From Lucinisca nassula (lineage: Eukaryota > Mollusca > Bivalvia > Lucinida > Lucinidae), in NCBI GenBank assembly GCA_963580285.1, contig OY757019.1, positions 63,818,587 to 63,882,586 on the forward strand: 64,000 nt of DNA, written 5' to 3'. The notes beneath the pieces were generated by a model, which searched no databases, was not told the origin of the DNA, and was given only the letters and a program-made list of their open reading frames with translations. Shown here one piece after another: positions 18,382-47,934 of this stretch (positions are counted from its first letter, which is position 1; each line of letters starts with the position of its first letter). The position numbers and the translations under genes are program-made.

Positions 18382-18776
18382 ATGTCTAGATGTGAGAAAA
18401 CAACACTAAGCTTGGACTTCCGAGAATTAATAATTCGAAAAATTAAAGAGAAGGGTGCCGATTCGGAAACTGGGACAACCCTTCGCGGAACATTTCTTAC
18501 TGTTGCAAAGGACGTAGGAATCCACCATTCTACTGTGAAAAATATTTGGACACGTTTCGTTTCGAGTAAATCGCTAGACCCAACACCCATTCCGGGTCGA
18601 CCTAGAAAGTTAAACGACACTGACATAGAATATATAAAGATGATTAAGACAGAGAATCCCTCTCTTACTCATGCTGAAGTGCGAGATAAACTTGACGAAA
18701 ACTCTAATGTCAAAGTTGACACTTCTACCGTTTGTCGAGCTGTCAAGCGCAGACTAGACCCATGCGAATGGACTTG
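18382..18776 (+). pseudogene. Tc1/mariner-type transposase, N-terminal half (split by the giant element)
   Basis: This is the DNA-binding half of a DDE transposase. It contains a first helix-turn-helix (about residues 10-60, with DVGIHHSTVKNIWTRF), the PGRPRKL linker motif typical of Tc1/mariner proteins, and a second helix-turn-helix (about residues 75-130, SLTHAEVRDKL..STVCRAVKRRL). The start at 18382 is the first Met and fits the expected length. The frame is interrupted at codon 132 by the 29-kb element. The physical frame runs on to 19143, adding about 121 element-encoded residues that are not transposase. The catalytic half is at 47935-48586. Counting one copy of the 6-bp duplication, 395 + 652 nt = 1047 nt, an exact 349 codons including the stop, the usual size of the family. 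No other lesion is seen in this half. Confidence 0.9.
18771..18776. repeat. Target-site duplication, left copy (GACTTG)
   Basis: Six bases, GACTTG, directly precede TATGGAAAGCC. The identical GACTTG directly follows CTTTCCATA at 47929-47934. Confidence 0.92.
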
Positions 18777-18839
18777 TATGGAAAGCCATGGCTGTCTTAA
18801 GGTCTGTATGTGCAAGTTGGTAGACGCAGTGGTCAATAT

Positions 18840-19800
18840 ATTTGATCAAATGCATATTTTACTGGATCAGATTTGTAAATCATTCAGTGGTGGAGTCATA
18901 GTATTGGGTGCAAACAACAAACTACTGTGTGCATTGGTTATGATATTTGGTCGGCGTAGCATATTATCCAATGAACTGCATATAGCAGTTGATGGTGGTG
19001 CCATAATACTGGATTCAGCGGATAAATTATTGCGTGTACAAACTATGATATTTGGTTTAAATAGCACAGTATTAGACTCATTCACCATTGCACTCAGTGC
19101 AATAAATATAACAGTTGGTAAATTTTTAAGCTGGTATACGTAAAGGTCAGACTATATTATTCGTTTAACATTTAACCTGATCAAATTAATATTTTACTGG
19201 GTTAAATGTATAAATTATTGGGTAGTGGCGTCATAGTATTTGATGCACCCAACATAATGGTGTATAGACTGGTTACAATATTTGGTCAGTTATGCAATTT
19301 ATTTGATCCAACACATAAAACACTTGGTGTTGGTATCATAGTATTGGATGCATTTGTCATAATACCGAGTAAAGTGTATACAGGGATTGGTTCGAAGGGC
19401 ACTTTATTTGGTCAAAACATTTAATTGGACAGGTGTGATATGAATATTACTTGGTGCAAGCAACATATTAATATGTGCATTGATTATAATAATTGGTCAG
19501 CAACAATTTTTTTTATCAAATGCATACATCAATGGCTGTTGATGCCATGATACTAGTCCCATCAGGCAATCTATTTTGTGTTATAATAATAGTATTTGAT
19601 TTAAATACAAAGTATTTGATTCATGTGTCATACCCTGCAGTGTGGTGACTATAATATTGGATAAGAAGAGCAGTTTATTTGGTGGTAAAATATATCATTG
19701 TATATGCTCACCATATTATTGGATTGTTTCAACATAATAGTCAATGTAAAAGTCATAATATTTGGTCGTTTTGTCATAGCACTAGCAGCAGCGCTCTTGA
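18840..19800 (+). repeat. Subterminal degenerate motif region
   Basis: Variants of ATAATATTTGGTC / ATAGTATTGGATGC recur throughout, for example near 18857, 18898, 18941, 18958, 19005, 19047, 19068, 19107, 19246, 19278, 19338, 19394 and 19766. Many spacings are close to 21 or 42 bp. The mirror set is in 46900-47860. Open frames here (the tail of the frame ending at 19143, and 19206-19424) follow the motif rather than any protein family. Repeated subterminal motifs are what transposase-binding regions of long-end elements look like, but that role is inference. Confidence 0.55.
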
Positions 19801-19899
19801 TAAAATCCGGACCGGACTAAAACCCGGAACCGCAACGGTTTCTGGTCAACACGTACCCGAGTCAACTCGTACCCACACACATAATTGGTGATTTGTTTG

Positions 19900-19974
19900 A
19901 TGAACGGACAGACGGACTGACAGACAGACACACGGGCGGGTGGAGATGAATGAATTATGAATGAATGAATAAAT

Positions 19975-20050
<76 letters not shown>

Positions 20051-20099
20051 CATGGACGGAAGGACGGACAAGTGAACGGATGGACGACAGAGAGAGAGA

Positions 20100-20133
<34 letters not shown>
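19900..20133. repeat. Microsatellite cluster: (GGAC)n, (TAGA)n, (GA)n
   Basis: GGACAGACGGACTGACAGAC, then GAATGAATGAAT, about 19 TAGA units (19974-20050), GGACGGAAGGACGGAC, and (GA)n (20090-20133). The mirror copy is at 46500-46800, where the tetranucleotide run is longer, about 34 units in two blocks. Confidence 0.95.
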
Positions 20134-20136
<3 letters not shown>

Positions 20137-20199
20137 GTTAAATGGATATTATTTTGGTTACTACTTTTGATTTAATTAGCACTTCGGCTAAACATAACA

Positions 20200-20432
20200 C
20201 CTTGTTTCTGCTCAAAAACATAGATTGTGGGTACTCGTTAGAACCGCCTCACTGAAGCGGTTCTAACGAGTACCCACAATCAATGTTACTAAGGCGGTTC
20301 TAATGAGTACCCACAAACTATGTTTTGAGCAGAAATACGAAAAGTAGCCGAATTTTTTTCTGAAAAGTTTCATTTTTTGGCGGTGAACTTTTCAATATAT
20401 TTGAATAGGCCTGTTTTCATTATGAATCTTAC
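20200..20432 (-). mobile_element. MITE-derived palindromes inside the left arm
   Basis: Two or more ACTCGTTAGAACCGCCTC-type palindromes (20231-20311), then, reading outwards on the minus strand, GGCGGTAAACTTTTCAATA-like sequence and ATAGGCCTGTTTTCATTATG. These are recognisable as the left half of the MITE family seen complete at 54576-54849. The mirror copy is at 46200-46432. Confidence 0.7.
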
Positions 20433-20439
20433 AGATTCC

Positions 20440-21455
20440 CACCCATAAACCATATATATTCTTGTTCCTTATGATAAGACACATTAAGTGACACCAGCCT
20501 GGTGGTCCCCGGGTGGCCCAGGCCCACGCCTCACTCCTTTACTCCATTAAAAAGCCATATATCTCAGAAACCGTTCAGATCCCCACCCGAAACCATATAT
20601 ATTCTTGTTCCTTATGATAAGATGCATTCAGTGACACCAGCCTGGGGGTCCCCCGGGCCATGCCTGGGCCCTGCCTCACCCCCTCCACTTCAAAAGGCCT
20701 TATATCTCAGAACTTTTACAGAGTCCCACCCGCAAACCATATATATTCTTGTTCTTTATGATAAGACACATTGAGCGACACCAGCCTGGTGGTCCCCGGG
20801 GATGCGCCGGGCCATGTCTCTCACCTTTATTTCATTAAAAGCCATATATCTAAGAAACCGTTCAGATCCCCACCCTTAAACCATATATATTCGTGTTCCT
20901 TATGATAAGACTCATTCCGTCACACTAACCTGGGGGTCTCTTTGTGCTGGGGCAATGTGCTGGGGCAATGTCCCGCCCCTCCACTTCATAAAAGGCCATA
21001 TATCTCAGAAGCCATTCAAATAATCCCCACCCCATAATCATAAACATTCTTGTTCCTTGTTATTAGACACATTCAGTCACACCAACTTGGGCAGGGGCCA
21101 TTCCTCTCCCCTCCACTTCATAAAAGGGTCTCATATCTCAGAAACCATACAGATCCCACCCCATAACCATATATGTTTTTTGGCCCTTATGATAAGACTC
21201 ATTCATTGACAACACTCTTGGGCTTTCTTGGATCCGCCGGGACCATGCCCCAACCTTCCACTGCTTAAAATGCCTTATATCTCAGGAACCATACAGATCC
21301 CCACCTCTAAACCATATATAGTCTTTTTCAAAATATGATAAAAACGCATTTAGAGATACCAACCAAGGCTCCAATGGGTCCATGCCCCAACCCCTCTAAT
21401 GCATAAAAGGCCTAATATTTCAGATACAGTCCACATGGGTGCTCATTTGGGGGTG
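20440..21455 (+). repeat. Tandem array of a 141-147-bp repeat (left arm block)
   Basis: About seven units, each with AAACCATATATATTCTTGTT, CCTTATGATAAGACACATT, a CCTGGGGGTCCCCGGG-type GC-rich stretch, CCCTCCACTTCATAAAAGGC and ATATCTCAGAAACC. The same family forms a larger block at 38010-39440 in the same orientation and the mirror block at 45170-46215. Confidence 0.9.
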
Positions 21456-21784
21456 GGGTGGGGGCGGGGGGGCTCGTTAAGTAGACATTATAATTGGTAG
21501 ATTAAAATCATATCGGCTGCCATTTGGCAGTGACCATCTGAGTTCTGTTTTTTTTTACTCCAGTGGGTCGCCAACTTCAACAAAGGGATTTTAACACAAT
21601 AGAGAAAGTACTGTCCTGCTATAGTGCATTTGAAAACTACCAGTTATTGTTAGAGCAATATTCTAACTACATAGAATGTTTCTCCATTCCCCTTTGACAT
21701 AACTCTGATGTACCAGGTAAATAAAGCCGTGAAATCTGTACCCTGGTAAGTCCACTTCATATAGGGAAAAGTGGGGTCGCAGGG
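21456..21784. other. Spacer in the left arm
   Basis: A G-rich tract at 21447-21472, otherwise no recognisable feature. It is mirrored at about 44820-45165, where the right arm has about 20 extra bases near 45104. Confidence 0.5.
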
Positions 21785-22235
21785 GTATACATTATTTTTT
21801 CTTATTTGCAAAACATACTTTGTGAGCATAAATAGATTGTGAGTACTCGTTAAAACCGTCTGAATTCGGCGATTCTAATGAGTACATAATATATGTGCAG
21901 TACTCGTTTTAACCGCCAAACTGAGGCGGTTCTAACGAGCACCTACAATCTAGGCTTTGGTACGGTTCAAACGAGTACCGTCAATCTATGTGTTTTGGAT
22001 CACCATGAGGTGGTTCAAACTAGTACCACACTTCTAAGCAACTAGAAAAATGTCTGCTCCAAAAATACATTGAGGGTACTCGTTAGAATAGATTGTATGT
22101 ACTCGTTAGAACCGCATCATTGAAATGGTTCAATCGAGTACCATAGATAGACAATGAGGTCTGACAAGTACCTACAATCTGTGTTTTGAGGCGGTTCTAA
22201 CGAGAACCCGGAATATATGTTCTGCAGCAGAAATA
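21785..22235. repeat. Cluster of GTACTCGTTAGAACCGCC palindromes
   Basis: At least six copies in both orientations of GTACTCGTT(A/T)(G/A)AACCG with short AT-rich spacers containing ACAATCTATG. The core is the central hairpin of the MITE family, here multiplied without the MITE ends. The mirror is at 44395-44790. Confidence 0.75.
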
Positions 22236-22960
22236 AACATACTTTCAAACGATACCTCCTCTGAAGCCACTGGGTCGATTGGGACCAAATTTCAACTGTA
22301 GTATCCTTGATCGAAAGTTTATGGGGAGAGGTGGTGGTTATAGGAAATTCGGCTCTTTAGTTTGGTTACCACGGCAACTTAGAGTGCCACTGGTTTATAA
22401 TGGGTAAATTCGAAAAATGGCATTTGGTGCCAAGCCGTTGCAGATATTTTGACACAACTTTTACAGAAATGTTCCTTGGATAGTCATCTACCTGATGTAT
22501 GATTTTTGTGCCCACCTCTCATTTTGATTAGTTGCCATGGCGATGGACAGGCAAACTGAAAAAATATTCAAAAATCAACTCCTCGGAAGCCATATTTTAT
22601 TTAAGGCTGATACTGTGCAGAAAGGTTCTTTGTATAAGCTTCTACAAATTTTGTGTTTTTATTGCCATTGCTCAAGAACCTTGGAAAAATTGAAAAATGG
22701 CATTCGTTGCAGATATTTTGTTTAAACTTTTACAGAAAGGTTCCTTGAATAGACAAGTGACTTAATGTGTCTCTCTAGACAAGTGACTTATGTGTCAACC
22801 ACTCAATTTGATAGCTTGTCATGGCAACTAAAAGTCTTAAAATATTCCATTTTGGTGACCCAGTGATAACTCCTGGGATAGATTCATGAAACTTCACAGA
22901 AGAGATGGATGCACAGACAACTGTAATATCATTTACGGCTGACCGGTTTCATAAAAGTAG
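22236..22960 (+). repeat. Degenerate tandem repeat with GTTGCCATGGC phrase
   Basis: Repeated phrases are TTGCAGATATTTTG, CTTTTACAGAAA(T/G)GTTCCTTG and GTTGCCATGGCGA / GTCATGGCAAC. They fall in two to three units of about 280 bp. The mirror is at 43630-44395. Small open frames here are not conserved proteins. Confidence 0.65.
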
Positions 22961-23294
22961 TAATTATAAGGGAAGTTTTAACATGCCGGGTGGGGGGGGG
23001 GGGGTCACGTTACGTTAATTCCGTGACGTGTATATTCTGAATAACAATGCGTAGCGATAAAGAGCTTTTCTTTCTCTTTCCTTCTAACGACACTATCTGT
23101 TTTCATTTGATAAAATGGGAACATTGAACATTGTGTATTTTGGCTCCCTATTCGAGCAGTCCGCAATTTTTGCGCTACTGGTACGTAATTGAGGACTAAG
23201 AAGAAACCGGTGTTTGTGGACCATACACTGGATTGAGCGATGTCGGCTGTTTGGCCACTTCCACACACCCTTCCAAGAGCTTGAGAGGGAGTTT

Positions 23295-23860
23295 TTGTTT
23301 TGTTTTGTTTTGATGGAGGTTTTACGTCCCCGTCAACACATGTTTAGGTCATTTTGGAGACGTTGCTTCTCTCTTTCGCGGAACTTTTACCCGACTGTGG
23401 GATGAAATGACATTCCAAGCGCTACCGTCCGCTGAAACAAAGTGTAGTTTTGTTAATGGGCGGCCTGACACGCACAACTCTAGCTTGGCTGTCTTAGACC
23501 TGCTAAGAGGTATTACCAGTATCAAGTTTTCGGTCGGCTTCAGCTCTGCCGGTCAGGAAGCAATTTGCAACCACATCTTTTTCTAAAGCCCCGATGAGTG
23601 TGGGCCTAATGGTGATTATATGGGTTACATCAGTACAAGTCGACATAGGGGCAACAAGAGTCTTCACCTTCCCATTCGACTTTTTTTGGTGTGTCTCTTG
23701 TCAATTTTAGACCCCTGATCACCGAGGCTTTAGAAATAGATGTGGATGCAGATTACTTTCTGGCAGAGCTGAATCTGACCGAAAACTTGATACTGGTAAT
23801 ACCACTTAGAAGTTCGAAGCCCGTTCAACTGTGCGAGTCGGTTGTCCAACAACAAAAACT
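23295..23860. mobile_element. Head-to-head pair of SINE sequences
   Basis: 23295-23690 is a minus-strand copy of the main SINE (GGAGGTTTTACGTCCCCGTC, GTCATTTTGGAGACGTTGCT, CAGCTCTGCC, AAGCCCCGATG). 23700-23860 is a plus-strand head fragment (GGCTTTAGAAATAGATGTGG, GGCAGAGCTGAATCTGACCG). They face each other and make an imperfect hairpin immediately before the 41-bp repeats. The mirror is at 42751-43320. Confidence 0.7.
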
Positions 23861-24770
23861 CCACTTTTTGACACTACTGTCATACATCATACACGGCCAC
23901 TATCACACTGTATACTACTGTTCTACTTCATACACGCCCATTGTCGGACTGTACGCAACTGTTCTACTACATACTCGCCCACTACCAGACTGTACACTAC
24001 TTTTCTACTACATACACGCCCACTATCAGACTGTACACTACTGTCCTACTACATACACGCCCACTATCAGACTGTACACTACTGTTCTACTACATACACG
24101 CCCACTATCAGACTGTACACTATCGTTCTACTACATACACGCCCACTATCACCCTGTATACTACTGTTCTACTACATACACACCCACTATCAGACTGTTT
24201 ACTACTGCTCTACTTCATACACGCCCTCTACCAGATTGTACACTACTGTCCTACTACACACACGCCCACTATCAGACTGTACACTACTGTTCTACTACAT
24301 ACACGCCCACTATCACCCTGTATACTACTGTTCTTCTACATACACACCCACTATCAGACTGTTTACTACTGCTCTACTTCATACACGCTCAATATCAGAA
24401 TGTACACTACTGTTCTACTACATACACGCCCACTATAAGACTGTTCACTACTGTTCTACACCATACACGCCCACTATCACCCTGTATATCACTGTTCTAC
24501 TACATACATGCCCACTATCAGACTATACACTACTGTTCTACTACATACACGCGCACTACCAGACTGTACACTACTGTTCTACTACATACACACCCACTAT
24601 CAGACTGTTTACTACTGCTCTACTTCATACACACCCTCTACCAGACTGTACACTACTGTCCTACTACACACACGCCCACTATCAGTCTGTACACTAGTGT
24701 TCTACTACAGACATGCCCACTATCAGAATGTACATTACTGTTCTACTACATAAACGCCTACTATCAGACC
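23861..24770 (+). repeat. 41-bp satellite, left-arm block
   Basis: About 22 units of exactly 41 bp (CACTATCAG starts at 24021, 24062, 24103). The unit has no stop codon in any plus-strand frame, so three overlapping frames stay open across the block. The mirror block in the right arm has about 18 units. Confidence 0.95.
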
Positions 24771-24929
24771 TTAATTCTGTGACGTGTATATACTCATGTT
24801 GGATACGATGGTTGTGTAGGTAGTTCTGTTCCGGAAATTATTTGTCTCCCCTAAATATTGTTTATCATAACTTTTGCATGAATAACGTAAATGACATTTG
24901 TGATGTGCGTGATATGTTTTCATTTACGT

Positions 24930-27110
24930 TAAATTCTTTTTTTTTTTTTTTTTTTAATTTTGCTAAGGAACCTTCTACGATATATTTGCACGACCCACAT
25001 CTAGTTTCACTGCATTTGCTTACAGCAAATGCTTCAGGTTTTGTTTATGTCCCCAAATTTGGAGAAGTTGACGGGGCATATTGGTTTGGTCCTGTCCGTC
25101 CGTCCGCCCGTCCGAAACATTATAATGGCTTGAGCTAATATCTTGAAATTTCATATTTGGGATGAGCATGAAAACAATGGACCCGATTTTTCTTTTCATC
25201 AGACTTGAGTTTGCCATTATAACAATAAGAAAACACTGTCAACAAAATATCAGGTGAACTGCTTGAGTTAGGATCCTGATATTTGGCAGACAGTTTGGGA
25301 TCAATGCGTAGATGACCTGATTAACCTTTGACGAAATTCCGTAAAAATGTACTGTGTTATACCTCCTTTTTTCGACTGCCATTATGCCATTATAACAATG
25401 GGACAACCTTTTCAACAAAATATCTGGAGGACCGCTTGAGCTAGTCTCATGATATTTGGCATACTGTTTGGGACTAATGTGTACATGACTTGATTAACTT
25501 TTGATGAAATTCCATATCATTTTTGACTGAATTATGCCCTTTTTCGGACATGCATTGAAACTATAGGAAAAGTAGAAGTAAAACAAAGATCAGGAATCGA
25601 TACAATTAACTTACTCCACCCACCAAAGACACCAAAGGGAAAGCAATACAAACATTAAGCGACCAGACCATAATGGAAACCTAAACAAAGGAAGGCCATA
25701 AGGACAGTTACTTTCCCACAAAATGGCCATATGGTCATTCAAAATTAAAAGACACAAGTGATACACACAGTAAGTAACAAACAACAACATAAATAAATCG
25801 CCACAGAAGAACCGCCTTGGAACGGTCAGTGGAAAGATTTCCACTGGGGGGCTTAAATCGATTTTACGTGGCCACAATCCTCGCCCTTACTTCCGTCGCA
25901 ATTTAGACAAATAATTTGTTCAGTCCGCATGAAGGCCTCCTAACTCATCAGTGCAACATCTCCGTGAACACAAAAAATCAAAGAACCACAGAGGTGAGAC
26001 AACGGTGAGGACTCGACAGCAAGAAACCACTGAAATGCTGGAGCAAAAGAAAACCAACAGTTAGACTCCGATGGGCCCGACCAGAGACAGAGCATCAGGC
26101 ACCAACCAACATTACCAAGAATTAGATCTCTCTAATTCTCAATAAGCCTTTACGTTGGAGCCGTCATAGAATCTGAGGCCTGACCCACCGGCGTGCAATT
26201 AAAGAGGGAAGCAAAGTTGCCAACCGTGATTGGGTTAACTACCATGCATGCAGTCTGTCGTATAACATCCATGTTGTACCCAATCTTTTTATATCGAATA
26301 ATGATTTTACGAAATTGGGTGCTGAAGTCATTGCGGTTATATATTTTTCTGAATTTATATACTAAGTCACCATAAAATTCGGGTTCCGATCGACCTTGTT
26401 GCAGAAGAGATTTAAGTCCAATATTGAATTTTGAAATTAAATCAGAATGGCGTCTATAAAATTTTGAAAATGCTTTGCGTAGTTTATGGTACCGATAACC
26501 CTGATTAAGGAGTTTAGCAGTTAATAATTTATTACGAGTGTTGAAACCTTGTCAACAAAATACATGTAGAACCGATTGAGATAGGCATATGCTATTTAGC
26601 ATACAGTCTGGGACTAATGTGTAGAAGACCTGATTGTTTTTTGACGCAATTCTGTAAATTTTTGACTGAATTATGTCCTCTTTTTGGAATAACGCATTGC
26701 TGCTAAAGGGAGCCTTGTCAACAAAAAATCTGGAGAACTGCTTGAGATAGTCGCATGATATTTGGCATACGGTCTGGGACTAATATGTAAATGACCTGAT
26801 TAACTTTTGACGGAATTCTGTAATTTTTGACTGAATTATGCCCCTTTATAGACTTATGCATTGCGGCTCTAGGAAATTTTGTCAACAAAATATCTGGAGG
26901 ACCGCTTGAGCTAGGCTCATGATATTTGGCATACTGTTTGGTACTAACGTGTCGATGACCTAATTAAGTTTTGAAAAAAAAACTGTAAATGTTTTCCTGA
27001 ATTACGCCCCTTTTTGGACGTAACTAGACTGATGATATTTGGCATGTGTCCTTGAGAAACCTTGTTGAACTTTGGCATTTTATCCATATTTTACAGACAA
27101 ACATATAGTT
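24930..27110 (+). mobile_element. Tandem-repeat element with GCATTTGCTTACAGCAAATGC hairpin
   Basis: Poly-T (24938-24955), a hairpin at 25013-25033, (GTCC)n at 25095-25114, then monomers of about 175 bp. These contain GTCAACAAAATATCTGGAG, ACCGCTTGAGCTAGGCTCATG, ATATTTGGCATACTGT and GACCTGATTAACTTTTGACG. It is the fourth element of this architecture in the window. It is interrupted at 25565-26553 by a retroelement that the right-arm copy (40640-41815) lacks. Confidence 0.75.
25565..26553 (-). mobile_element. 5'-truncated retroelement, left arm only
   Basis: On the minus strand, from 26553, it opens with NTRNKLLTAKLLNQGYRYHK and runs to a stop at about 26150, ending TPVGQASDSMTAPT. This is the C-terminal tail of a reverse-transcriptase-type protein that recurs in bivalve genomes, as far as I recall. 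About 585 bp of 3' noncoding sequence follow, ending GATCTTTGTTTTACTTCTAC. The right arm has the uninterrupted site near 41205. A second copy is at 61801-62732 and a tail-only copy at 6095-6360. 5' truncation fits target-primed reverse transcription. The clade is unresolved. Confidence 0.75.
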
Positions 27111-27470
27111 GGGGGCCTTGTGTTTTACAAACGCATTTTCTAGTTTTATTTATGATGGAAATAGTTACCATCGGCAGATCGTCCCCCTTTTAGATATGAT
27201 CAGGCAAATCCCGCTAGGTACGTCTGACTTAACTTAGCATAATGAATTATGTAGAAATCTGGCGTCAAACAGATAGAAGCAAGGTTTTCCCCTCCCTGTA
27301 AAACTGGCTAGTATGTTATTGATTTGTTTGATATTTCAGAGCAAACAATATTAAATATATTAGTTTTTTCTCTCTCTTTTTCTTGAAACGGATTACATAT
27401 CAGTCAACCCGATGGTTGTTAATTTAGTTTGTTTGACATCGCATGATTAGCGATACGCTGCCTTCACATC

Positions 27471-30400
27471 TACTGCCTACAAGCCCACTATCAGACTGTA
27501 CACTACTGTTCTGCTACATATATGTCCACTACCAGACTGTACACTACTCTTCTACTACATACACGTCCACTACCGGACTGTACACTACTGTTCTACTACA
27601 TACACGCCCACAATCAGACTGTACACTACTGTCCTAGTACAAACACACCCACTACCAGACTGTACACTGCTGTCCTACTACATACACGCCCACTATCCGA
27701 CTGTACAATACTGTCCTACCACATACACGCCCACTACCAGACTGTACACTACTGTTCTGCTACATACACACCTACTTTCAGACTGTACACTACTGTTTTA
27801 CTAAATACATGCCCACTATCAGACTGTACTCTACTGTTCAACTATATACACGCCGACTATCAGATTGTACACTACTGTTCTACTACATACACATCGAATA
27901 TCAGATTGTACACTACTGTTCTACTACATACACGCCCACTATTACCCTGTATTCTACCGTTCCCTACATACATGCCCACTATCAGACTGTATACTACTGT
28001 TCTACTACATACATGCCCACTACCAGAATGTACACTACTGTTCTACTACATACACACCCACTATCACACTGTACACTACTGTTCTACTACACATGTGCCC
28101 ACTATCTACTGTTCTACTACATACACGCCCACTATCAGACTGTACACTACTGTTCTACTACATACACGCCCTCTATCAGATTGTTCACTTCTGTTCTACT
28201 ACATACACACCCATTTTCAGACTGTACACTACTGTTATACTACATACACGCCCACTATCAACCAACCTGTATACTACCGTTCTACTACATTCATGCCAAC
28301 TAATAGACTGTACACTACGGTTCTACTACATACATGCCCACTACCAGAATGTACACTACTGTCCTACGACATACATGCCCACTATGAGACTGTACACTAC
28401 TGTTCTACTACATACATGCCCACTACCAGAATGTACACTACTGTTCTACTACATACACACCCACTATCACACTGTACACTACTGTTCTACTACATATGTG
28501 CCCACTATCTACTGTTCTACTACATACACGCCCACTATCAGACTGTACACTGCTGTTCTACTACATACACGCCCACTATCAGATTGTTCACTTCTGTTCT
28601 ACTACATACACACCATTTTTTAGACTGTACACTACTGTTCTACTACATACACGCCCACTATCAACCAACCTGTATACTACCGTTCTACTACATTCATGCC
28701 CACTAATAGACTGTACACTACGGTTCTACTACATACATGCCCTCTACCAGAATGTACACTACTGTCCTACGACATACATGCCCACTATGAGACTGTACAC
28801 TACTGTTTTACTACATTCACGCCATTATCATAATGGTCACTACTGTTCTACTACATACACGGCCACTATCAGACTGTACACTACTGTTCTACTACATACA
28901 CGCCCACTATCAGACTGTATACTACTGTTCTACTACATATGTTCCCACTATCACCTTATTTACTAATGTTCTACTACATAGGCTCTCACTATCAGACTGT
29001 ATACTACTGTTCTACTACACACACGCTCACTATCAGACTGTATACTACTGTTCTACTACATACACGCCCACTATACGACTGTTTACGACTGTTCAACTAC
29101 ATACACGTCCACCATCAGACTGTACACAACTGTTCTACTACATACATGTCCAGTACCATACTGTACACTACTGTTCTACTACCTACAGGCCAACTACCAG
29201 ACTGTACACTTCTGTTCTACTTCATACACGACCACTATCAGAATGTACACAACTGTCCTACTACATACACGCTCACTATCGGACTGTACACTACTGTTCT
29301 ACTACATACACGCTCACTATCAGATTGCACACTATTGTTCTACTACATATGTGCCCACTATCTTCGGTTCTACTACATACACGCCCACTATCAGACTGTT
29401 TACTGCTGTTCTACTACATACACGCCCACTATCAGAATGTTTACTACAGTTCTACTACATACAAGCCCACTTTCAGACTGTACACTACTGTTTTATTACA
29501 TACACGCTCAGTATCAGACTGTATACTACTGTTCTGCTACATACACGCCCACTAAACGACTGTTGTTTACTACTGTTCTACTACGTACACGCCCACTATC
29601 AGACTGCACACTACTGTTCTAGTGCATACACGCCCACTATCACACTGTACACTACTGTTTTACTTAATTCATGTCCACTACCAGACCCTACACTTCTGTT
29701 CTACTACTTACACGCCCACTATCGGACTTAACACTAATGTCCTACTACATACATGCCCACTATCAGACTCTACACTACTGTTCTACTACATACACGCCCA
29801 CTGTCAAACTGTACACTACTGTTCTACTACATACACGCCTACTGTCAGACTGTACACTACTGTTCTACTACAAAAAGCTCACTATCACAATGTACCAGAC
29901 TGTACACTACTATTTTACAACATACACGCTCACTACCGGACTGTACACCTCTTTCCTACTAGATACATGCCCACTATCAGACTGTACACTACTGTCCTTC
30001 TACATACATGGCTACTATCAGACAGTACACTACTGGCCTACTACATACACGTCCACTACAAGACTGTTCACTGCTGTTCTGCTACATACAGGCCCATTTT
30101 TAGACTGTACACTACTGTTCTACTATATACACGCCCACTATCAGACTGTACAATACTGTTCTACTACATACACGCCCACTTTTATACTGTGCACTACTGT
30201 TTTACTACATACACGCCCATTATCAGACTGTACATTACTGTTTTACTACATACACGCCCACTACCGGACTGTACAATACTGTCCTACTACATATATGGCC
30301 ACTATCAGACTGTACATTACTGTCCTACTTCATAAATGCCCATTGTCAGACTGTACACTACTGTCCTAGTACTTACACGCCCACTACCAGACTGTACACT

Positions 30401-36580: not shown

Positions 36581-37276
36581 AGGTGCTTTGCAAAAGTTTT
36601 GTACCCCAGCAAGTTTTGCATAAGTAGTTGCATACCCCCTGTGATGTTTTAGCTTCCATTACTCTAATGAAGCATGTGATACTTTAACGACGCTTACATT
36701 TTTATGCATTATAGGTATCTGCTGATATATAATATGGTATTTAATACATGTGTCGCAGAAAAGCATATGCAATGCATGGTTTTATATTGCATATTAAATC
36801 AATACAGCTCTGAAGTCACTTTCTGGACTTTATCGACACTTCTTGTCGACATATTCATGTCGATTAGACATCCGTGTAGTTGGAATGCATTAACAATACT
36901 TTACCTAACAGAAGCTGAAAAAGTTTGTTCTGATAAGCTTTCTTCTTGACTGTAGAGAAATTAAAGAAAGGTGTGTTATAGCAATTTATTACTTTAATAT
37001 AGTTTTACAATCCCTGTAATGATAGAATCCCTATAATGATATGAGACAGTTAATCAAAATGGAGTGTGTGTGTGTGTATATAGTCCTGTTTTAGACATTG
37101 GTGCTTTATTCTGTTTTTCTAGCATCATGATCCCCTTGATGGGGAAGAGAGAGGTGATTGCTTTGCTTTTTGTTGGATATATATTATATTCGAGATTTGT
37201 TCTTTGTTCCTTTGGTAGGTTGTGTACTGTCATTGTGGTACTTTCTGGTCAACGTCTTTAGTATTTTGTGATTTTT
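36581..37276. other. Inner loop edge, partly mirrored
   Basis: 36900-37062 resembles the reverse complement of about 40062-40240 (GTTCTGA, GACTGTAGAGAA, GCAATTTATTACTTT, AGTTTTACAATC, ATGAGACAG, ATCAAAATG). The inverted arms once extended further in, and the 41-bp array now separates this piece from the left arm. A (GT)n run lies at 37064-37079. Small open frames at 36704-36949 and 37064-37261 are unrecognised. Confidence 0.5.
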
Positions 37277-39834
37277 ATCCCCCGACCGAATAGGTTCGGG
37301 GGATATAGCGATCAGCCTGGCGTCCGTCCGTCTGTCCGTCCGTCTCTCCGTCCGTCCGTCCGTAGATGATGGCCATGTGATGGCCATAACGCCTATACCC
37401 TTTGACATTCATTGATGGTTCTTGGCACAATTGTTCGCAAGGCTGAGGCGGCGTGTCATGCGCAAGAACCAGAACTCTGGATGCCATACTTTTTGAGTTA
37501 TCTCCCCTTTTAATAAAATAGAGTGACTACTTTGTGATGGCCATAACTCCAATACCCTTTGAGATATGTTGATGGTACCTGGCACAGTTGTTCACAAGGC
37601 TGAGACAGTGTGTCATGCACAAGAATCACAACTCTGGTTGTCTTGGTTATTGAGTTATCTCCCCTTCCAATAAAATTGAGTTACTACCTTGTGATGGCCA
37701 TAACTCCAATACCCTTTAAGATATATTGATGATACCTGGCAATTGTTCACAAGGCCGAGACGGTGTGTCATCCACAAGAACCACAACTCTGGGTGCCATG
37801 GGTTTCGAGATATCTCCCCTTCCAATAATATAGAGTCACTACCTTGTGATGGCCACATCTCCAATACTCTTTACGATATATTGATGGTACTTGGTACAGT
37901 TGTACATGAGGTTAAGCAGGAGTGTCACGTTCAAGAACCACGACTCTGGGTGCCCGGGTTTTTTTAATTATCTCCCCTGACAATATCACCTTGTGATGGC
38001 CATAACTCCAAAACCTTTCAGATCCTCACCCCTAAACCATATATATTATTGTTCCTTATGATAAGACACATTCATTGACACCAACCTGGGGGGCCCGGAT
38101 GCACTAGGGCCTTGCCCCACCCCCTCCACTTCATAAAAGGCCCAATATTTCGGAAACCTTACAGATCCCCATCCCTAAACCATATATATTCTTGTTCCTT
38201 ATGATAAGACACATTCAGTTATACTAACCTGGGGGCCCCGGGATGCGCCGGGGCTACGCCCCTTCCCCTCCACTACATAAAAGGCCATATATCTCAGAAA
38301 CCGTTCAGATCCCCACCCGAAACCATATATATTCTTGTTCTTTATGATAAGATGCATTCATTGACATCAACCTATGGGGCCCTGGGATGCGCCGGGGCCT
38401 TGCCCCACCCCCTCCACTTCACAAAAGGCCCAATATCTCGGAAACCTTACAGATTCCCACCCCTAAACCATATATATTATTGTTGCTTATGATAAGACAC
38501 ATTCAATGACACCAACCTGGGGGCCCCCTGTGTGAGCCAGGGCCCTGCCCCACCCCCTCCACTTCATAAAAGGCCATATATCTCAGAAACCATTCAGATC
38601 TCCACCCCAAAACCATATATATTATTGTTTCTTATGATAAGACGCATTCAGTGACAACAACCTGGGGGTCCCCTGGGAAGTGACCGGGCCAAGCCCCATC
38701 CCCTCCACTTCAAAAAAGGCCCAACTTCTCAGAAACTGTTCAGATTCCCACCCCTAAACCATATATATTCTTGTTTCTAATGATAACACGCATTCAGTGA
38801 TACCAACATAGGGGTCTCCCGGGATGCGCCATTTCCCCACTCCTCCACTTCATTAAAGGCGATATACCTCAGAAACCTTTCAGATCCCCACCCCAAAATC
38901 ATATATATTCTTGTTTCTTATGATAAGACGCAATCAGTGACACCAACCTGGGGGTCTTCTGGGATGTGCCCGGGCCATGTCCCACCCCCTCCACTCCATA
39001 AAAGGCCCAAAATTCTCAGAAACCGTTCAGATCTGCAACCCTTATCCATATATATTCTTGTTCTTTATGATAAGACGCATTCAGTGATTCCAACCTAGGG
39101 GTCTTCAGGGGTGTGCCGGGGCCATGCCCCACCCTGCTACTTCATAAAAGGCGATAAATCTCAGAAACCGATCAGATTCCCACCCCTAAACCATATATAT
39201 TCTTGTTTCTTATGAAAAAACGCATTCAGAGACACCAACCTGGGGGTCTCTTGGGATGTGCCTGGGCCATTCCCCACCCCCTCCACTTCATAAAAGGCCC
39301 AATATATCAGAAACCGTTAAGACCTCCACCCATAAACCATATATTTTCTTGTTCCTTATGATAAGATGCATTCAATGATATCAAATTGGGCTCTGTTGGG
39401 TCATCTCCCTACCCTCCACTTCATAAAAGGCCTAATATTTCAGATACAGAGTCCACATGGAATGGGGGTTCATTTGGGAGACTTTATAATCAATAAATTA
39501 AAACCATACATGCCTGCCAGTGGGCAGAGCCCGCCTGAGCTCTGGTGAGCATCGTGGCCCATGGGCCTCTTGTTTACTTATCTCCCCTGACAGTATAACC
39601 TTGTGATGGCCATAACTGCAATACTTTTGGGTGCTCTAACTGCTAGGGTGTTCGAACTAATTGGTCACCTACCGGTAAATGACCAATTAATTCGAACAGT
39701 AAAAAAATAATACTGATCCTGGTGTCCGAATTATTAGAAAATATCAGATCGAAATATATTGCTGGTTTAATTCTGTTGCACTTTCTATTGGTGAACAATT
39801 TTCTGAAGGCCATATTGGCTTTTGGTCGGGGGAT
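37277..39834 (+). mobile_element. Nested tandem-repeat element, ATCCCCCGACC family
   Basis: It starts ATCCCCCGACC (37277-37287) with a hairpin (TCCCCCGACCGAATAGGTTCGGGGGA), then (GTCC)n at 37321-37363, and tandem monomers. The mirror of the first 11 bases, GGTCGGGGGAT, is at 39824-39834. Two arrays lie inside. TGATGGCCATAACTCC units sit at 37379, 37535, 37692, 37847 and 37994 (147-157-bp spacing). After them come about ten 141-147-bp units. Near 39530-39570 it has a tail (GTGAGCATCGTGGCCCATGGGCCTCTTG) like that of the AGCTCACCTGAGCC family. The right boundary is therefore uncertain and could be 39570. Confidence 0.5.
38010..39440 (+). repeat. Tandem array of the 141-147-bp repeat (central block)
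   Basis: About ten units. CCATATATATT begins at about 38038, 38180, 38323, 38468, 38613, 38759, 38900, 39046, 39191 and 39338. Orientation and sequence match the left-arm block at 20440-21455. Confidence 0.92.
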
Positions 39835-40297: not shown

Positions 40298-40639
40298 GAT
40301 GTGAAGGCAGCGTATCGCTAATCATGCGCTGTCAAACAAACTAAATTAACAACCATCGCGTTGACTGATATATAATCCGTTTAAAGAAAAAGAGAGAGAA
40401 AAAAGTAAATAGATTTAATATTGTTTGCTCTGAAATATCAAACAATTCAATAACATTCTAGCCAGTTTTACAGGGAGGCGAAATCTTGCTTCTATCTGTT
40501 GGACGCCAGATTTCTGCTAAGTTAAGTCAGACGTACCTAGCGGGATTTGCCTGATCATATCTAAAAGGGCGACGATCTGCCGATGGTAACTATTTCCATC
40601 ATAAATAAAACTAGAAAATGCTTTTGTAAAACACTAGGC

Positions 40640-41815
40640 CCCCAACTATATGTTTGTCTGTAAAATATGGATAAAATGCCAACGTTCAACAAGGTTACTC
40701 AAGGACACATGCCAAATATCATCAGTCTAGTTACGTCCAAAAAGGGGTGTAATTCAGGAAAACATTTACAGTTTTTTTTTTCAAAAGTTAATTAGGTCAT
40801 CTACACCAAACAGCATGCCAAATATCATGAGCCTAGCTCAAGCGGTCCTCCAGATATTTTGTTGACAAAATTTCCTAGAGCCGCAATGCATAAGTCTATA
40901 AAGGGCATAATTCAGTCAAAAATTACAGAATTCCGTCAAAAGTTAATCAGGTCATTTACATATTAGTCCCAAACTGTATGCCAAATATCATGCGACTATC
41001 TCAAGCAGTTCTACAGATTTTTTGTTGACAAGGCTCCCTTTAGCAGCAATGCGTTATTCCAAAAAGAGGACATAATTCAGTCAAAAATTTACAGAATTGC
41101 GTCAAAAAACAATCAGGTATTCTACATATTAGTCCCAGACTGTATGCTAAATATCATATGCCTATCTCAATCGGTTCTTCATGTATTTTGTTATTTTGTT
41201 GACAAGGTATCCTGTAGTTGCAATGCATGTCCGAAAAAAGGCATAATTTAGTCAAAAATGATCTGGAATTTCATCAAAAGTTAATCAAGTCATGTACACA
41301 TTAGTCCCAAACAGTATGCCAAATATCATGAGACTAGCTCAAGCGGCCCTCCAGATATTTTGTTGAAAAGGTTGTCCAATTGTTATAATGGCAGTCGAAA
41401 AAAGGAGGTATAACATTTTTTACGGAATTTCGTCAAAAGTTAATCAGGTCATCTACGCATTGATCCCAAACTGTCTGCCAAATATCAGGATCCTAACTCA
41501 AGCGGTTCACCTGATGTTTTGTTGACAGTGTTTTCTTATTGTTAGAATGGCAAACTCAAGTCTGATGAAAAAAAATTTCGGGTCCATTGTTTTCATGCTC
41601 ATCCCAAATATGAAATTTCAAGATATTAGCTCAAGCCATTATAATGTTTCGGACGGGCGGAAGGACGGGTGGACGGACAGGACCAAACCAATATGCCCCG
41701 TCAACTTCTCCGAATTTGGGGACATAAACAAAACCTGAAGCATTTGCTGTAAGCAAATGCAGTGAAACTAGATGTGGGTCGTGCAAATATATCGTAGAAG
41801 GTTCCTTAGTAAAAT
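40640..41815 (-). mobile_element. Tandem-repeat element with GCATTTGCTG hairpin, uninterrupted copy
   Basis: Mirror of 24960-27110 without the retroelement. The hairpin is GCATTTGCTGTAAGCAAATGC (41741-41761) and a (GGAC)n tract lies at 41651-41680. Poly-A (about 41822-41845) corresponds to the poly-T at 24938-24955. Confidence 0.75.
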
Positions 41816-42018
41816 TTAAACAAACAAACAAAAAAAAAAAAAAAACAAGATTTTAACGTAAATGAAATTATATCACGCACATCACAAATGCCATTCACGT
41901 TATTCATGCAAAAGTTATGATGAACAATATTTAGGGGAGACAAATAATTTCCGGAACAGAACTACCCTACACAACCATCGTATCCGACATGAGTATATAC
42001 ACGTCACGGAATTAACGT

Positions 42019-42750
42019 CTGATAGTAGGCGTTTATGTTGTAGAACAGTAGTGTACATTCTGATAGTGGACATGTATGTAGTAGAACAGTAGTGTACAGA
42101 CTGATAGTGGGAGTGTGTGTAGTAGGACAGTAGTGAACAGTCTGGTAGAGGGCGTGTATGAAGAAGAACAGTAGTAAACAGTCTGATAGTGGGTGTGTAT
42201 GTAGTAGAACAGTAGTGTACAGTCTGGTAGTGGGCGTGTATGTAGTAGAACAGTAGTGTATAGTCTGATAGTGGGTATGTATGTAGTAGAACAGTAGTAT
42301 ACAGGGTGATAGTGGGCGTGTATGGTGTAGAACAGTAGTGAACAGTCTTATAGTGGGCGTGTATGTATTAGAACAGTAGTGTACAGTCTGATAGTGAGCG
42401 TGTATGTAGTAGAACAGTAGTATACAGGGTGATAGTGGGCGTGTATGTAGTAGAACAGTAGTGTACAGTCTGATAGTGGGCGTGTATGTAGCAGACAGTA
42501 GTACAGTCTGATATAGTGGGCGTGTATGTAGTAGGACAGTAGTGTACAGTCTGATAGTGGGCGTGTATGTAGAAGAGTAGTGTACAGTCTGATAGTGGGC
42601 GTGTATGTAGTAGAAAAGTAGTGTACAGTCTGGTAGTGGGCGAGTATGTAGTAGAACAGTTGCGTTCAGTCCGATAGTGGGCGTGTATGAAGTAGAACAG
42701 TAGTATACAGTGTGATAGTGGGCGTGTATGAAGTATGACAGTAGTGTCAA
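42019..42750 (-). repeat. 41-bp satellite, right-arm block
   Basis: About 18 units read on the minus strand, followed (on that strand, upstream) by the SINE pair at 42751-43320. The minus strand stays open for 290 codons for the same reason as in the other blocks. Confidence 0.95.
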
Positions 42751-43320
42751 AAAGTGGAGTTTTTGTTGTTGGACAACCGACTCGCACAGCTGAACGGGCT
42801 GCGAACATCTAAGTGGTGTTACCAGTATCAAGTTTTCGGTCAGATTCAGCTCTGCCAGAATGTAATCTGCATCCACATCTATTTCTAAAGCCTCGGTGAT
42901 CGGGGGCCTAAAATTGACAAGAGAGATACCAAAAAAGTCGAATGGGAAGGTGAAGACCCCTGTTGCCCCTATGTCGACTTATACTGATGTAACCCATATA
43001 ATCACCATTAGGCCCACACTCATCGGGGCTTTAGAAAAAGATGTGGTTGCAAATTGCGTCCTGACCGGCAGAGCTGAAGCCGACTTTATACTTGTAATAC
43101 CTCTTAGCAGGTCTAAGACAGCCAAGCTAGAGTTGTGCGTGTCAGGCCGCCCATTTACAAAACTACACTTTGTTTCAGCGGACGGTAGCGCTTGGAATGT
43201 CATTTCATCCCACAGTCGGGTAAAAGTTCCGCGAAAGAGAGAAGCAACGTCTCCAAAATGACCTAAACATGTGTTGACGGGGACGTAAAACCTCCATCAA
43301 AACAAAACAAAACAAAAACT
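42751..43320. mobile_element. Head-to-head SINE pair, right arm
   Basis: Mirror of 23295-23860. The junction at 42800-42830 reads GAACATCTAAGTGGTGTTACC where the left arm has AGTTCGAAGC, so there are a few substitutions between the arms here. Confidence 0.7.
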
Positions 43321-44394
43321 CCCTCTCAAGCTCTTGGAAGGGTGTGTGGAAGTGGCCAAACAGCCGACATCGCTCAATCCAGTGTATGGTCCACAAACAC
43401 CGGTTTCTTCTTAGTCCTCAATTACGTACCAGTAGCGCAAAAATTGCGGACTGCTCGAATAGGGAGCCAAAATACACAATGTTCAATGTTCCCATTTTAT
43501 CAAATGAAAACAGATAGTGTCGTTAGAAGGAAAGAGAAAGAAAAGCTCTTTATCGCTACGCATTGTTATTCAGAATATACACGTCACGGAATTAACGTAA
43601 CGTGACCCCCCCCCCCCCCACCACCCGGCACGTTAAAACTTCCCTTATAATAACTTATACAGGCTTTGAAGATTACTTTTCTGAAACCGGTCAGCCGTAA
43701 ATAACATTACAGTTGTCTGTGCATCCATCTCTTCTGTGAAGTTTCATGAATCTATCCCAGGAGTTATCACTGGGTCACCAAAATGGAATATTTTAAGACT
43801 TTTAGTTGCCATGACAAGCTATCAAATTGTGTGGTTGACACATAAGTCACTTGTCTAGAGAGCACTTTTCAAGGAACCTTTCTGTAACAGTTTATCTGCA
43901 ACGAATACCATTTTTGTCAATTTTTCCAAGGTTCTTGAGCAATGGCAATAAAAACACAAATTTTGTAGAAGCTTAAACAAAGAACCTTTCTGCACAGTAT
44001 CAGCCTTAAATGCAATATGGCTTCTGAGGAGTTGATTTTTGAATATTTTTTCAGTTTTAAGCCTGTCCATCACCATGGCAACTAATCAAAATGAGAGGTG
44101 GGCACAAAAATCATACATCAGGTAGATGACTATCCAAGGAACATTTCTGTAAAAGTTGTGTCAAAATATCTGCAACGGCTTGGCACCAAATGCCATTTTT
44201 CGAATTTACCCATTATAAACCTGTGGCACTCTAAGTTGCCGTGGTAACCAAACTAAAGAGCCGAATTTCCTATAACCACACCCTCTCCCCATAAACTTTC
44301 GATCAAGGATACTACAGTTGAAATTTGGTCCCAATCGACCCAGTGGCTTCAGAGGAGGTATCGTTTGAAAGTATGTTTATTTCTGCTGCAGAAC

Positions 44395-44790
44395 ATATAT
44401 TCCGGGTTCTCGTTAGAACCGCCTCAAAACAGAGATTGTAGGTACTTGTCAGACCTCATTGTCTATCTATGGTACTCGATTGAACCATTTCAATGATGCG
44501 GTTCTAACGAGTACATACAATCTATTCTAACGAGTACCCTCAATGTATTTTTGGAGCAGACATTTTTCTAGTTGCTTAGAAGTGTGGTACTAGTTTGAAC
44601 CACCTCATGGTGATCCAAAACACATAGATTGACGGTACTCGTTTGAACCGTACCAAAGCCTAGATTGTAGGTGCTCGTTAGAACCGCCTCAGTTTGGCGG
44701 TTAAAACGAGTACTGCACATATATTATGTACTCATTAGAATCGCCGAATTCAGACGGTATTAACGAGTACTCACAATCTATTTATGCTCA
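44395..44790. repeat. GTACTCGTTAGAACCGCC palindromes, right arm
   Basis: Reverse complement of 21785-22235, nearly identical. Confidence 0.8.
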
Positions 44791-45169
44791 CAAAGTATGT
44801 TTTGCAAATAAGAAAAAAATAATGTATACCCCTGCGACCCCACTTTTCCCTATATGAAGTGGACTTACCAGGGTACAGATTTCACGTTTTTGTTTACCTG
44901 GTACATCAGAGTTATGTCAAAGGGGAATGGGGAAACATTCTATGTAGTTAGAATATTGCTCTAACAATAACTGGTAGTTTTCAAATGCACTATAGCAGGA
45001 CAGTACTTTCTCTATTGTGTTAAAATCCCTTTGTTGAAGTTGGCGACCCACTGGAGTAAAAAAAAAAAAAACAGAACTCAGATGGTCACTGCCAAATGGC
45101 AGCCATATATTTCAACATGATATGATTTTAATCTACCAATTATAATGTTTACTTAACGAGCCCCCCGCC

Positions 45170-46215
45170 CCCACCCCACCCCCAAATGAGCACCCATGTG
45201 GACTGTATCTGAAATATTAGGCCTTTTATGCATTAGAGGGGTTGGGGCATGGACCCATTGGAGCCTTGGTTGGTATCTCTAAATGCGTTTTTATCATATT
45301 TTGAAAAAGACTATATATGGTTTAGAGGTGGGGATCTGTATAGTTCCTGAGATATAAGGCATTTTAAGCAGTGGAAGGTTGGGGCATGGTCCCGGCGGAT
45401 CCAAGAAAGCCCAAGAGTGTTGTCAATGAATGAGTCTTATCATAAGGGCCAAAAAACATATATGGTTATGGGGTGGGATCTGTATGGTTTCTGAGATATG
45501 AGACCCTTTTATGAAGTGGAGGGGAGAGGAATGGCCCCTGCCCAAGTTGGTGTGACTGAATGTGTCTAATAACAAGGAACAAGAATGTTTATGATTATGG
45601 GGTGGGGATTATTTGAATGGCTTCTGAGATATATGGCCTTTTATGAAGTGGAGGGGCGGGACATTGCCCCAGCACATTGCCCCAGCACAAAGAGACCCCC
45701 AGGTTAGTGTGACGGAATGAGTCTTATCATAAGGAACACGAATATATATGGTTTAAGGGTGGGGATCTGAACGGTTTCTTAGATATATGGCTTTTAATGA
45801 AATAAAGGTGAGAGACATGGCCCGGCGCATCCCCGGGGACCACCAGGCTGGTGTCGCTCAATGTGTCTTATAATAAAGAACAAGAATATATATGGTTTAC
45901 GGATGGGACTCTGTAAAAGTTCTGAGATATAAGGCCTTTTATGAAGTGGAGGGGGTGAGGCAGGGCCCAGGCATGGCCCGGGGGACCCCCAGGCTGGTGT
46001 CACTGAATGAATCTTATCATAAGGAACAAGAATATATATGGTTTCGGGTGGGGATCTGAACGGTTTCTGAGATATATGGCTTTTTAATGGAGTAAAGGGG
46101 TGAAGCGTGGGCCTGGGCCACCCGTGGACTACCAGGCTGGTGTCACTTAATGTGTCTTATCATAAGGAACAAGAATATATGTGGTTTATGGGTGGGGTTC
46201 TGTAAGATTCATAAT
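45170..46215 (-). repeat. 141-147-bp tandem array, right arm block
   Basis: Reverse complement of 20440-21455, about seven units with the same unit order and the same distinctive variants (for example the doubled CATTGCCCCAGCA at 45663-45689 against 20950-20972). Confidence 0.9.
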
Positions 46216-46498
46216 GAAAACAGGCCTATTCAAATATATTGAAAAGTTTACCGCCAAAAAATGAAAATTTTCAGATAAAAAATTCGGCTGCTTTTCGTAT
46301 TTCTGCTCTAAACATAGTTTGTGGGTACTCGTTAGAACCGCCTTAGTAACATTGATTGTGGGTACTCGTTAGAACCGCCTCAGTGCGGCAGTTCTTACGA
46401 GTACCCACAATCTATGTTTTTGAGCAGAAATAAGGTGTTATGTTTAGCCGAAGTGCTAATTAAATCAAAAGTAGTAACCAAAATAGTATCCATTTAAC

Positions 46499-46499
<1 letters not shown>

Positions 46500-46550
<51 letters not shown>

Positions 46551-46593
46551 TCCATCCGTTCATTTGTCCGTCCTACCGTCCGTCCGTCCTTCC

Positions 46594-46675
<82 letters not shown>

Positions 46676-46676
46676 G

Positions 46677-46730
<54 letters not shown>

Positions 46731-46800
46731 ATTTATTCATTCATTCATAAATCATTTATCTCCACCCGCCCATGTGTCTGTCTGTCCGTCCGTCTGTCCG
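46500..46800. repeat. Microsatellite cluster: (CT)n, (TCTA)n, (GTCC)n
   Basis: (CT)n at 46502-46546, two TCTA blocks (46594-46673, 46678-46731), then ATTCATTCATTC and GTCTGTCTGTCCGTCC. It is longer than the left-arm counterpart, as expected of a fast-mutating repeat. Confidence 0.95.
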
Positions 46801-47928
46801 TTCATTAAACAAATCATCAATTATGTGTGTGGGTACGAGTTGACTCGGGTACGAGTTGACCAGAAACCGTTGCGGTTCCGGGTTTTAGTCCGGTTCGGCT
46901 TTTATCAAGAGCGCTGCTGCTAGTGCTATGACAAAACGACCAAATATTATGACTTTTACATTGACTATTATGTTGAAACAATCCAATAATATGGTGAGCA
47001 TATACAATGATATATTTTACCACCAAATAAACTGCTCTTCTTATCCAATATTATAGTCACCACACTGCAGGGTATGACACATGAATCAAATACTTTGTAT
47101 TTAAATCAAATACTATTATTATAACACAAAATAGATTGCCTGATGGGACTAGTATCATGGCATCAACAGCCATTGATGTATGCATTTGATAAAAAAAATT
47201 GTTGCTGACCAATTATTATAATCAATGCACATATTAATATGCTGCTTGCACCAAGTAATATTCATATCACACCTGTCAAATTAAATGTTTTGACCAAATA
47301 AAGTGCCCTTCGAACCAATCCCTGTATACACTTTACTCAGTATTATGACAAATGCATCCAATGCTTTGATACCAACACCAAGTGTTTTATGTGTTGGATC
47401 AAATAAATTGCAAAACTGACCAAATATTGTAACCAGTCTATACACCATTATGTTGGCTGCATCAAATACTATGACGCCACTACCCAATAATTTATACATT
47501 TAACCCAGTAAAATATTAATTTGATCAGGTAAAATGTTAAACGAATAATATAGTCTGACCTTTACGTATACCAGCTTAAAAATTTACCAACTGTTATATT
47601 TATTGCACTGAGTGCAATGGTGAATGAGTCTAATACTGTGTTATTTAAACCAAATATCATAGTTTGTACACGCAATAATTTATCCGCTGAATCCAGTATT
47701 ATGGCACCACCATCAACTGCTATATGCAGTTCATTGGATAATATGCTACGCCGACCAAATATCATAACCAATGCACACAGTAGTTTGTTGTTTGCACCCA
47801 ATACTATGACTCCATCACTGAATGATTTACAAATCTGATCCAGTAAAATATGCATTTGATCAAATATATTGACCACTGCGTCTACCAACTTGCACATACA
47901 GACCTTAAGACAGCCATGGCTTTCCATA

Positions 47929-47934
47929 GACTTG
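47929..47934. repeat. Target-site duplication, right copy (GACTTG)
   Basis: Identical to 18771-18776 and directly abutting the right end of the giant element. Confidence 0.92.

Follow-up and report, generated by a model that had tools for sequence, protein, structure and literature searches.

A giant palindromic element of the bivalve Lucinisca nassula that has spread as a two-armed, satellite-filled unit

In the genome of the bivalve Lucinisca nassula, a transposase gene is interrupted by 29,152 bp of palindromic, satellite-containing DNA, which raises the question of what this DNA is and how it reached its present location. The element occupies positions 18777–47928 of the 64-kb stretch that was analyzed (assembly GCA_963580285.1, contig OY757019.1, positions 63,818,587–63,882,586 of the forward strand; hereafter the window). 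It belongs to a family with fixed ends and 6-bp duplications at many unrelated sites, whose whole two-armed, satellite-filled unit has spread through the genome. We consider it likely that this is a giant non-autonomous transposon of the foldback type, whose mobility depends on an IS3EU-like transposase acting in trans.

The insertion site and the interrupted gene

Two direct copies of the hexamer GACTTG directly abut the ends of the element (TATGGAAAGCC.. at the left and ..GGCTTTCCATA at the right). When the flanks are joined with a single GACTTG, they yield a frame of 1047 nt (349 codons including the terminal stop) with zero internal stops. The two parts of this gene match HTH_32 (E 2.7e-8) and DDE_3 (E 5.5e-18), i.e. 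the domains expected of a transposase of the IS630/Tc1/mariner type. The features that define the insertion are as follows (coordinates of the window, strand, description):

18382–18776, + strand: interrupted transposase gene, N-terminal part (HTH_32), including the left duplication copy
18771–18776, + strand: target-site duplication, left copy (GACTTG)
18777–18804, + strand: terminal tip TATGGAAAGCCATGGCTGTCTTAAGGTC, mostly common to a second family of the same genome with otherwise unlike ends
47901–47928, − strand: terminal tip, right end
47929–47934, + strand: target-site duplication, right copy (GACTTG)
47935–48586, + strand: interrupted transposase gene, C-terminal part (DDE_3) up to the stop

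An initial annotation of the window had described a perfect duplication lying exactly against the inverted ends, had summed the transposase halves to 1047 nt (349 codons), and had deduced a single insertion event that fixes the ends to the base. The first of these points was confirmed to the base and the second by a joined frame that is open throughout, while the duplication and the restored frame together bear out the third.

Zero exact inverted 12-mers were found between 17501–18382 and 48581–49600, where Tc1 ends of the interrupted gene were sought; the gene may therefore stand alone, or its ends may have decayed. A broken relative of its DDE_3 transposase, 62% identical over the best stretch, is located at 58242–59065 of the window.

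Copies in the genome and their target sites

The 2.93-Gb assembly that contains the window (696 contigs) was searched for further copies. With the 289-bp arm end as query, 45 matching places were recovered, 42 of which are 97–100% identical; these numbers are a lower bound, with 40 of 81 candidates scored. The 20-bp tip, with up to two mismatches allowed, gave 531 matches (268+263), compared to 1+0 for a reversed-pattern control. Among the matches listed (the first 100 tip places), 90 had at most one mismatch, and these formed 31 inward-facing pairs. Two pairs were dropped, one being an 8.2-kb member of the second family and the other re-using the right end of another pair. This left at least 29 paired giant copies, 12.9–44.0 kb in length, all picked by a tip within one mismatch.

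A 6-bp target-site duplication is perfect in 23 of these 29 copies, contains one mismatch in four and is absent from two. In the window copy and ten others the duplications are all perfect (11/11) and all different. Seventeen further copies comprise 12 with a perfect duplication, 4 with one mismatch and 1 with none, and one more copy, on contig C9, has a duplicated right end and no target duplication. When the left and right sites of 28 copies were cross-paired, 6 of 756 combinations were perfect, all of them inside a trio of copies on C6, and 7 agreed with at most one mismatch. Since the ends and the 6-bp duplication recur and cross-pairings rarely match, the duplications are not due to chance. 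The 21 distinct perfect sites reveal no strict consensus, with A at position 2 in 11 of the 21 and at position 5 also in 11. The arm-end search suggested in the initial annotation thus recovered more copies, and the duplication of every paired giant was scored; in place of the different ends without 6-bp duplications that had been named as evidence to the contrary, 27 of the 29 copies have a perfect or one-mismatch duplication and two have none.

The three C6 copies (at 81.18, 81.98 and 82.81 Mb) share their flanks as well as their duplication (CATGTG), which looks like the amplification of a single insertion through segmental duplication. In the C9 copy (C9:146223883–146243388; L056–L058) the terminal end is repeated 346 bp further out at the right, which recalls the tandem-TIR (terminal inverted repeat) Mutator elements of plants (PMC3310237). 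The second copy without a duplication may be mispaired. The four imperfect duplications (L062/L063, L068/L069, L072/L073 and L088/L089) are mismatched at position 2 or 5, where the left copy has A and the right copy T or C. In viral contigs no exact match to the tip or satellite patterns was found, and plasmids gave 0 matches to the arm end.

Twelve copies were read whole. Inverted arms are present in all 11 copies tested, with 1.9–7.6 kb of aligned inverted sequence (partly satellite in C1 and C12b), and in the twelfth, C9, they were seen by window matches. The palindrome is therefore not peculiar to the window copy, as the 11 other copies read also have arms. The 41-bp satellite was found in 12 of 12 copies, where it accounts for 11–51% of the length. 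Copies C20b and C10a, located on different contigs, are 98.8% identical over 19.2 aligned kb, and identity of this degree over ~19 kb indicates that the two-armed unit moves whole. A tree was constructed for the first kilobase of the arms of the 12 copies. It contains a young set of seven copies, whose arms are each closest to the cognate arm of another copy (98.3–99.9%), whereas the two arms within a copy are 96.2–97.6% alike. Since cognate arms are closer between young copies than mates are within them, the palindrome was inherited in two-armed form through successive jumps.

Structure and persistence of the palindrome

The arrangement given in the initial annotation, inverted arms around satellite DNA, was recovered in the window copy, with the left arm from 18777 to ~27470 and the right arm from ~40298 to 47928. 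The components of the element are:

18777–27470 (end approximate), + strand: left inverted arm, including a later insert
20432–20938, + strand: ~145-bp tandem repeat, left arm
23871–24769, + strand: 41-bp satellite inside the left arm, ~22 units
25567–26514, strand not assigned: interspersed repeat, left arm only; 95.8% copy at ~61800–62733
27469–36581, + strand: central 41-bp satellite array, ~224 units
37376–37985, strand not assigned: 157-bp tandem array, center
38011–39378, + strand: 145-bp tandem array, center, orientation as in the left arm
40298–47928 (inner limit approximate), − strand: right inverted arm
42017–42747, − strand: 41-bp satellite inside the right arm, ~18 units
45694–46202, − strand: ~145-bp tandem repeat, right arm

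Both arms, like the center, contain the 41-bp and 145-bp repeats. Identity between the arms is 94.6–100% in 26 of 28 blocks (300 columns, with aligned bases) and 84.6% and 87.8% in the other two; the outer arms, before the arm satellite, differ by 95 substitutions over 5,050 aligned bases (98.1% identity). The left arm contains 968 bp without a counterpart in the right arm, most of which (25567–26514) represents a later insert, given its copy outside the element.

Assembly is difficult where long palindromes contain satellites, which would favor an artefact of assembly. This explanation, as well as that of a simple inverted duplication formed without transposition, was rejected as exceedingly improbable, because the outer arms differ by ~2%, a transposable element is inserted on one side alone, the flanks restore an open frame, and 27 of 29 copies have perfect or one-mismatch 6-bp duplications.

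The relationship between the two arms of a copy (mates) points to exchange of sequence between them. In the arm tree, mates are sisters in 4 of 12 copies, i.e. the window copy (support 90/81), C15 (99/97), C1 (100/99) and C12b (95/96). When the window copy was divided into 500-bp windows and compared with the sampled copies, the mate was nearest in 6 of 10 windows of the left arm and 8 of 10 of the right, and further away in the rest. The substitutions between its outer arms are clustered (variance/mean 3.7; longest identical run 529 bp; permutation P 0.003). Such patchy divergence is what arm-to-arm gene conversion predicts, and intermittent conversion is the simplest reading of the sister mates and the patchy divergence. 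The arm tree and the patchy divergence thus suggest that the palindrome may persist through intermittent mutual conversion of its arms, while the internal satellites would expand and shrink, helping to set the length of each copy.

Several observations weigh against conversion. Mates are not sisters in C207 and the seven young copies, the support for the window pair (90/81) is below the starred level of the tool, and the mates of C12b are 96.3% identical to each other versus up to 96.4% to other copies. Constraint or mutation that varies along the arms could likewise make divergence patchy, and, with 12 copies compared, an arm may have a closer relative outside the sample. Alternatively, the palindrome might be rebuilt rather than maintained, a single arm being copied into an inverted pair at or after transposition by fold-back synthesis or aberrant repair. 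The sister mates in 4 of 12 copies would agree with such an origin, which nevertheless seems unlikely: the young seven-copy set inherited two distinct arms through several jumps, and the identical blocks of the window copy alternate with blocks closer to other copies, a pattern better explained by tract-wise conversion.

Other repeats were noted in the window. A ~300-bp stretch of the arm (23290–23605) recurs at 70–82% identity in 12 places of the right flank (~49070–61245) and represents an older dispersed repeat that the arms have carried along. Tandem arrays with ~150- and 330-bp units, possibly a dispersed host repeat, are located at 1225–2893 and 10585–12058. A tRNA match at 55901–55973 (Rfam RF00005, 36.9 bits) is perhaps the head of a SINE (short interspersed nuclear element). 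The tandem and SINE-like repeats of the window are reminiscent of molluscan genomes.

Coding content, affiliation and probable mover

Except for the frame that continues into the element from the interrupted gene, no transposase or integrase was detected (E 0.05) in the 108 open frames of at least 50 amino acids that touch the window element (satellite-dominated ones excluded), which agrees with the initial annotation in finding no mobility gene in this copy. The remaining matches were weak, the best being GIY-YIG in 1 of the 108 (E 0.008). The 11 other giant copies and four relatives contain 716 frames of at least 75 amino acids; 337 satellite-dominated frames were dropped, and the other 379 were reduced to 135 representatives, all of which were scanned. 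The long frames of the giant copies proved to be mostly satellite, and no integrase was found among the 135, as expected of a non-autonomous element. RVT_1 was identified in three of these frames and GIY-YIG in three (best E 4e-4). GIY-YIG domains occur in Penelope-like retroelements.

Copy C1 carries broken mariner-type domains (HTH_48 and Transposase_1) in two neighboring frames (L044, 6196–7442). This stretch is absent from the other copies save for a 153–336 bp piece of its middle part, found in C15, C10a, C20b, C13, C18 and C9; a 221-bp piece of the preceding sequence was found in two copies. The C1 transposase was rejected as a helper, and since the stretch is largely unshared by other copies, it was taken to be an inserted mariner. 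A long frame of copy C10b, weakly RVT_1-like (E 0.069) and with no useful PDB match, lies within ~3.4 kb absent from C20a and is therefore part of a later insert.

IS3EU elements are described as having TA..TA ends and usually 6-bp duplications (PMC10045372), and those of a rust-fungus group as having TAYGG..CCRTA ends with 6-bp duplications (PMC12730594). The ends of the window copy and of the other paired copies read TATGG..CCATA, one right end having a changed base, and their duplications are of the same length (6 bp; 23 of 29 perfect, 4 with one mismatch and 2 lacking). In these respects the element behaves as a non-autonomous transposon of the IS3EU type, its membership being probable rather than proven. 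Non-autonomous members have been recorded before: Repbase in May 2022 listed 45 IS3EU families, 17 of them autonomous and 28 non-autonomous (PMC10045372). In the mechanism proposed here, an IS3EU-type DDE transposase encoded elsewhere in the genome would recognize the ~28-bp tip (TATGGAAAGCC..), cut out the giant unit and paste it with a 6-bp stagger.

Three points count against this proposal. No IS3EU-type transposase was found in the scanned frames of the 12 copies and four relatives. The sole transposase domains in the 135 frames are the broken mariner-type ones of C1, and mariner-type transposases in general give TA duplications (PMC10045372). The duplication is missing in 2 of the 29 copies, one of which has the duplicated right end. 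The same giant mobile family might instead be moved by a transposase from outside IS3EU, such as a GingerRoot-type lineage, a hAT with 6-bp duplications or an undescribed superfamily: the mobilizing transposase was not seen in the scanned frames of the giant copies, GingerRoot elements likewise combine 6-bp duplications with ends that are mostly TA..TA, and the duplications of hAT6 are also 6 bp long (PMC10045372, PMC12730594). We rate a mover of this kind as unlikely, since the terminal pentamer taken together with the length of the duplication fits the IS3EU signature (PMC12730594) and GingerRoot is itself grouped with IS3EU (PMC10045372).

The second family (B) has a tip, TATGGAAYGCC(C/A)TGGCTGTC, that resembles the tip of the giant element. 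Four members were identified on contigs C1 and C15, namely L059 (8.8 kb), L100 (6.3 kb), L101 (3.3 kb) and L102 (8.2 kb). Their inverted ends measure 417–444 bp and are 73–74% alike in L059, L100 and L101; L102 has outer ends without a single difference over 425 bp. Three of the four elements have a perfect duplication (TCCTTA, CTTTAG and TATGCG), and L102 has none; a fifth element, of which the ends alone were read, has the duplication AGTTTG. The interiors contain reverse-transcriptase frames (RVT_1) in L100 and L101 and a 42-bp satellite in L059. These elements, considered as candidates for the autonomous partner of the giant copies, thus form a family of their own.

Several known types of element were ruled out. 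Polinton/Maverick elements have AG..CT ends and carry genes for PolB and an integrase; the ends found here begin with TATGG, and PolB and integrase domains were not found in the scanned frames. Miniature inverted-repeat transposable elements (MITEs) are under ~1 kb, and an element of 29,152 bp, in a family of 12.9–44.0 kb, is far outside them in size and layout, as the initial annotation had maintained. Helitron-like satellite carriers of bivalves (pearl and its kin) have no target-site duplication and are excluded by the 6-bp duplications. Drosophila FB elements generate duplications of 8–10 bp. With 8–10 bp also given for Tetris (PMC4079207) and 6 bp found here, membership of the Drosophila foldback group (FB, Tetris) was rejected.

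The foldback layout as such is defined by inverted arms that are long and repetitive inside, together with a lack of coding capacity (PMC4079207, PMC2775673), and the giant copies show a layout of this type, two of them holding frames of inserted elements (reverse-transcriptase-like in C10b and mariner-type in C1). Tetris of Drosophila virilis, likened here by its description alone, is also non-autonomous, with long, internally tandem TIRs that are a source of satellite arrays, but its TIRs reach 1,735 bp and its duplications are 8–10 bp (PMC4079207). Galileo, of the P superfamily, has long repetitive TIRs and was first classed as foldback-like without coding capacity, but it gives 7-bp duplications, and its inversion-linked copies have TIRs of ~575 bp (PMC2775673). 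The arms of the giant element are thus far longer than those of the Tetris and Galileo copies described, and the duplication length differs (PMC4079207, PMC2775673). The Mutator-related Rehavkus likewise contains a minisatellite inside a DNA transposon, but has a 9-bp duplication, TIRs of 26–400 bp and one frame with a transposase (PMC6446971). Teratorn differs in its herpesvirus genes, its own piggyBac-like transposase and its 18-bp TIR. IS3EU elements and the related Styx of Zymoseptoria share TA..TA ends and a 6-bp duplication with the giant element (PMC10045372, PMC12730594, PMC10853768). Styx differs in its 36-bp TIRs, its size of ~7.9 kb and its integrase gene (PMC10853768), and multi-kb arms, a satellite load and a size of 12.9–44.0 kb are absent from the IS3EU and Styx descriptions compared.

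The view in the initial annotation that no described element has such a layout could not be upheld, since both the IS3EU ends with their duplication and the foldback layout have been published (PMC12730594, PMC10045372, PMC4079207, PMC2775673). A search of the open-licence literature (titles and beginnings of abstracts, subscription journals being outside its scope) found no palindromic transposon of such size without its own transposase. It is the scale, the absence of a recognizable movement gene, the satellite load and the spread of the whole unit that are unusual; the layout has parallels in kind.

DNA transposition is said to be less efficient the further apart the ends lie (PMC6431247). 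One quite improbable idea is that the palindrome forms part of the transposition machinery, the paired arms bringing ends 13–44 kb apart into one synaptic complex. Pairing of the arms, either within a single strand at replication or in a cruciform, would then allow a transposase normally unable to bridge such a distance to move giant units that contribute nothing to their own mobility, and arm conversion would either result from each jump or be needed for it. Units of ~20 kb without a recognizable movement gene, whose arms would be expected to be unstable, have nevertheless spread to many sites. The family thereby opens three questions to direct testing: the joining of such distant ends by a transposase, the survival of long palindromes, and the origin and transport of satellites inside transposons.

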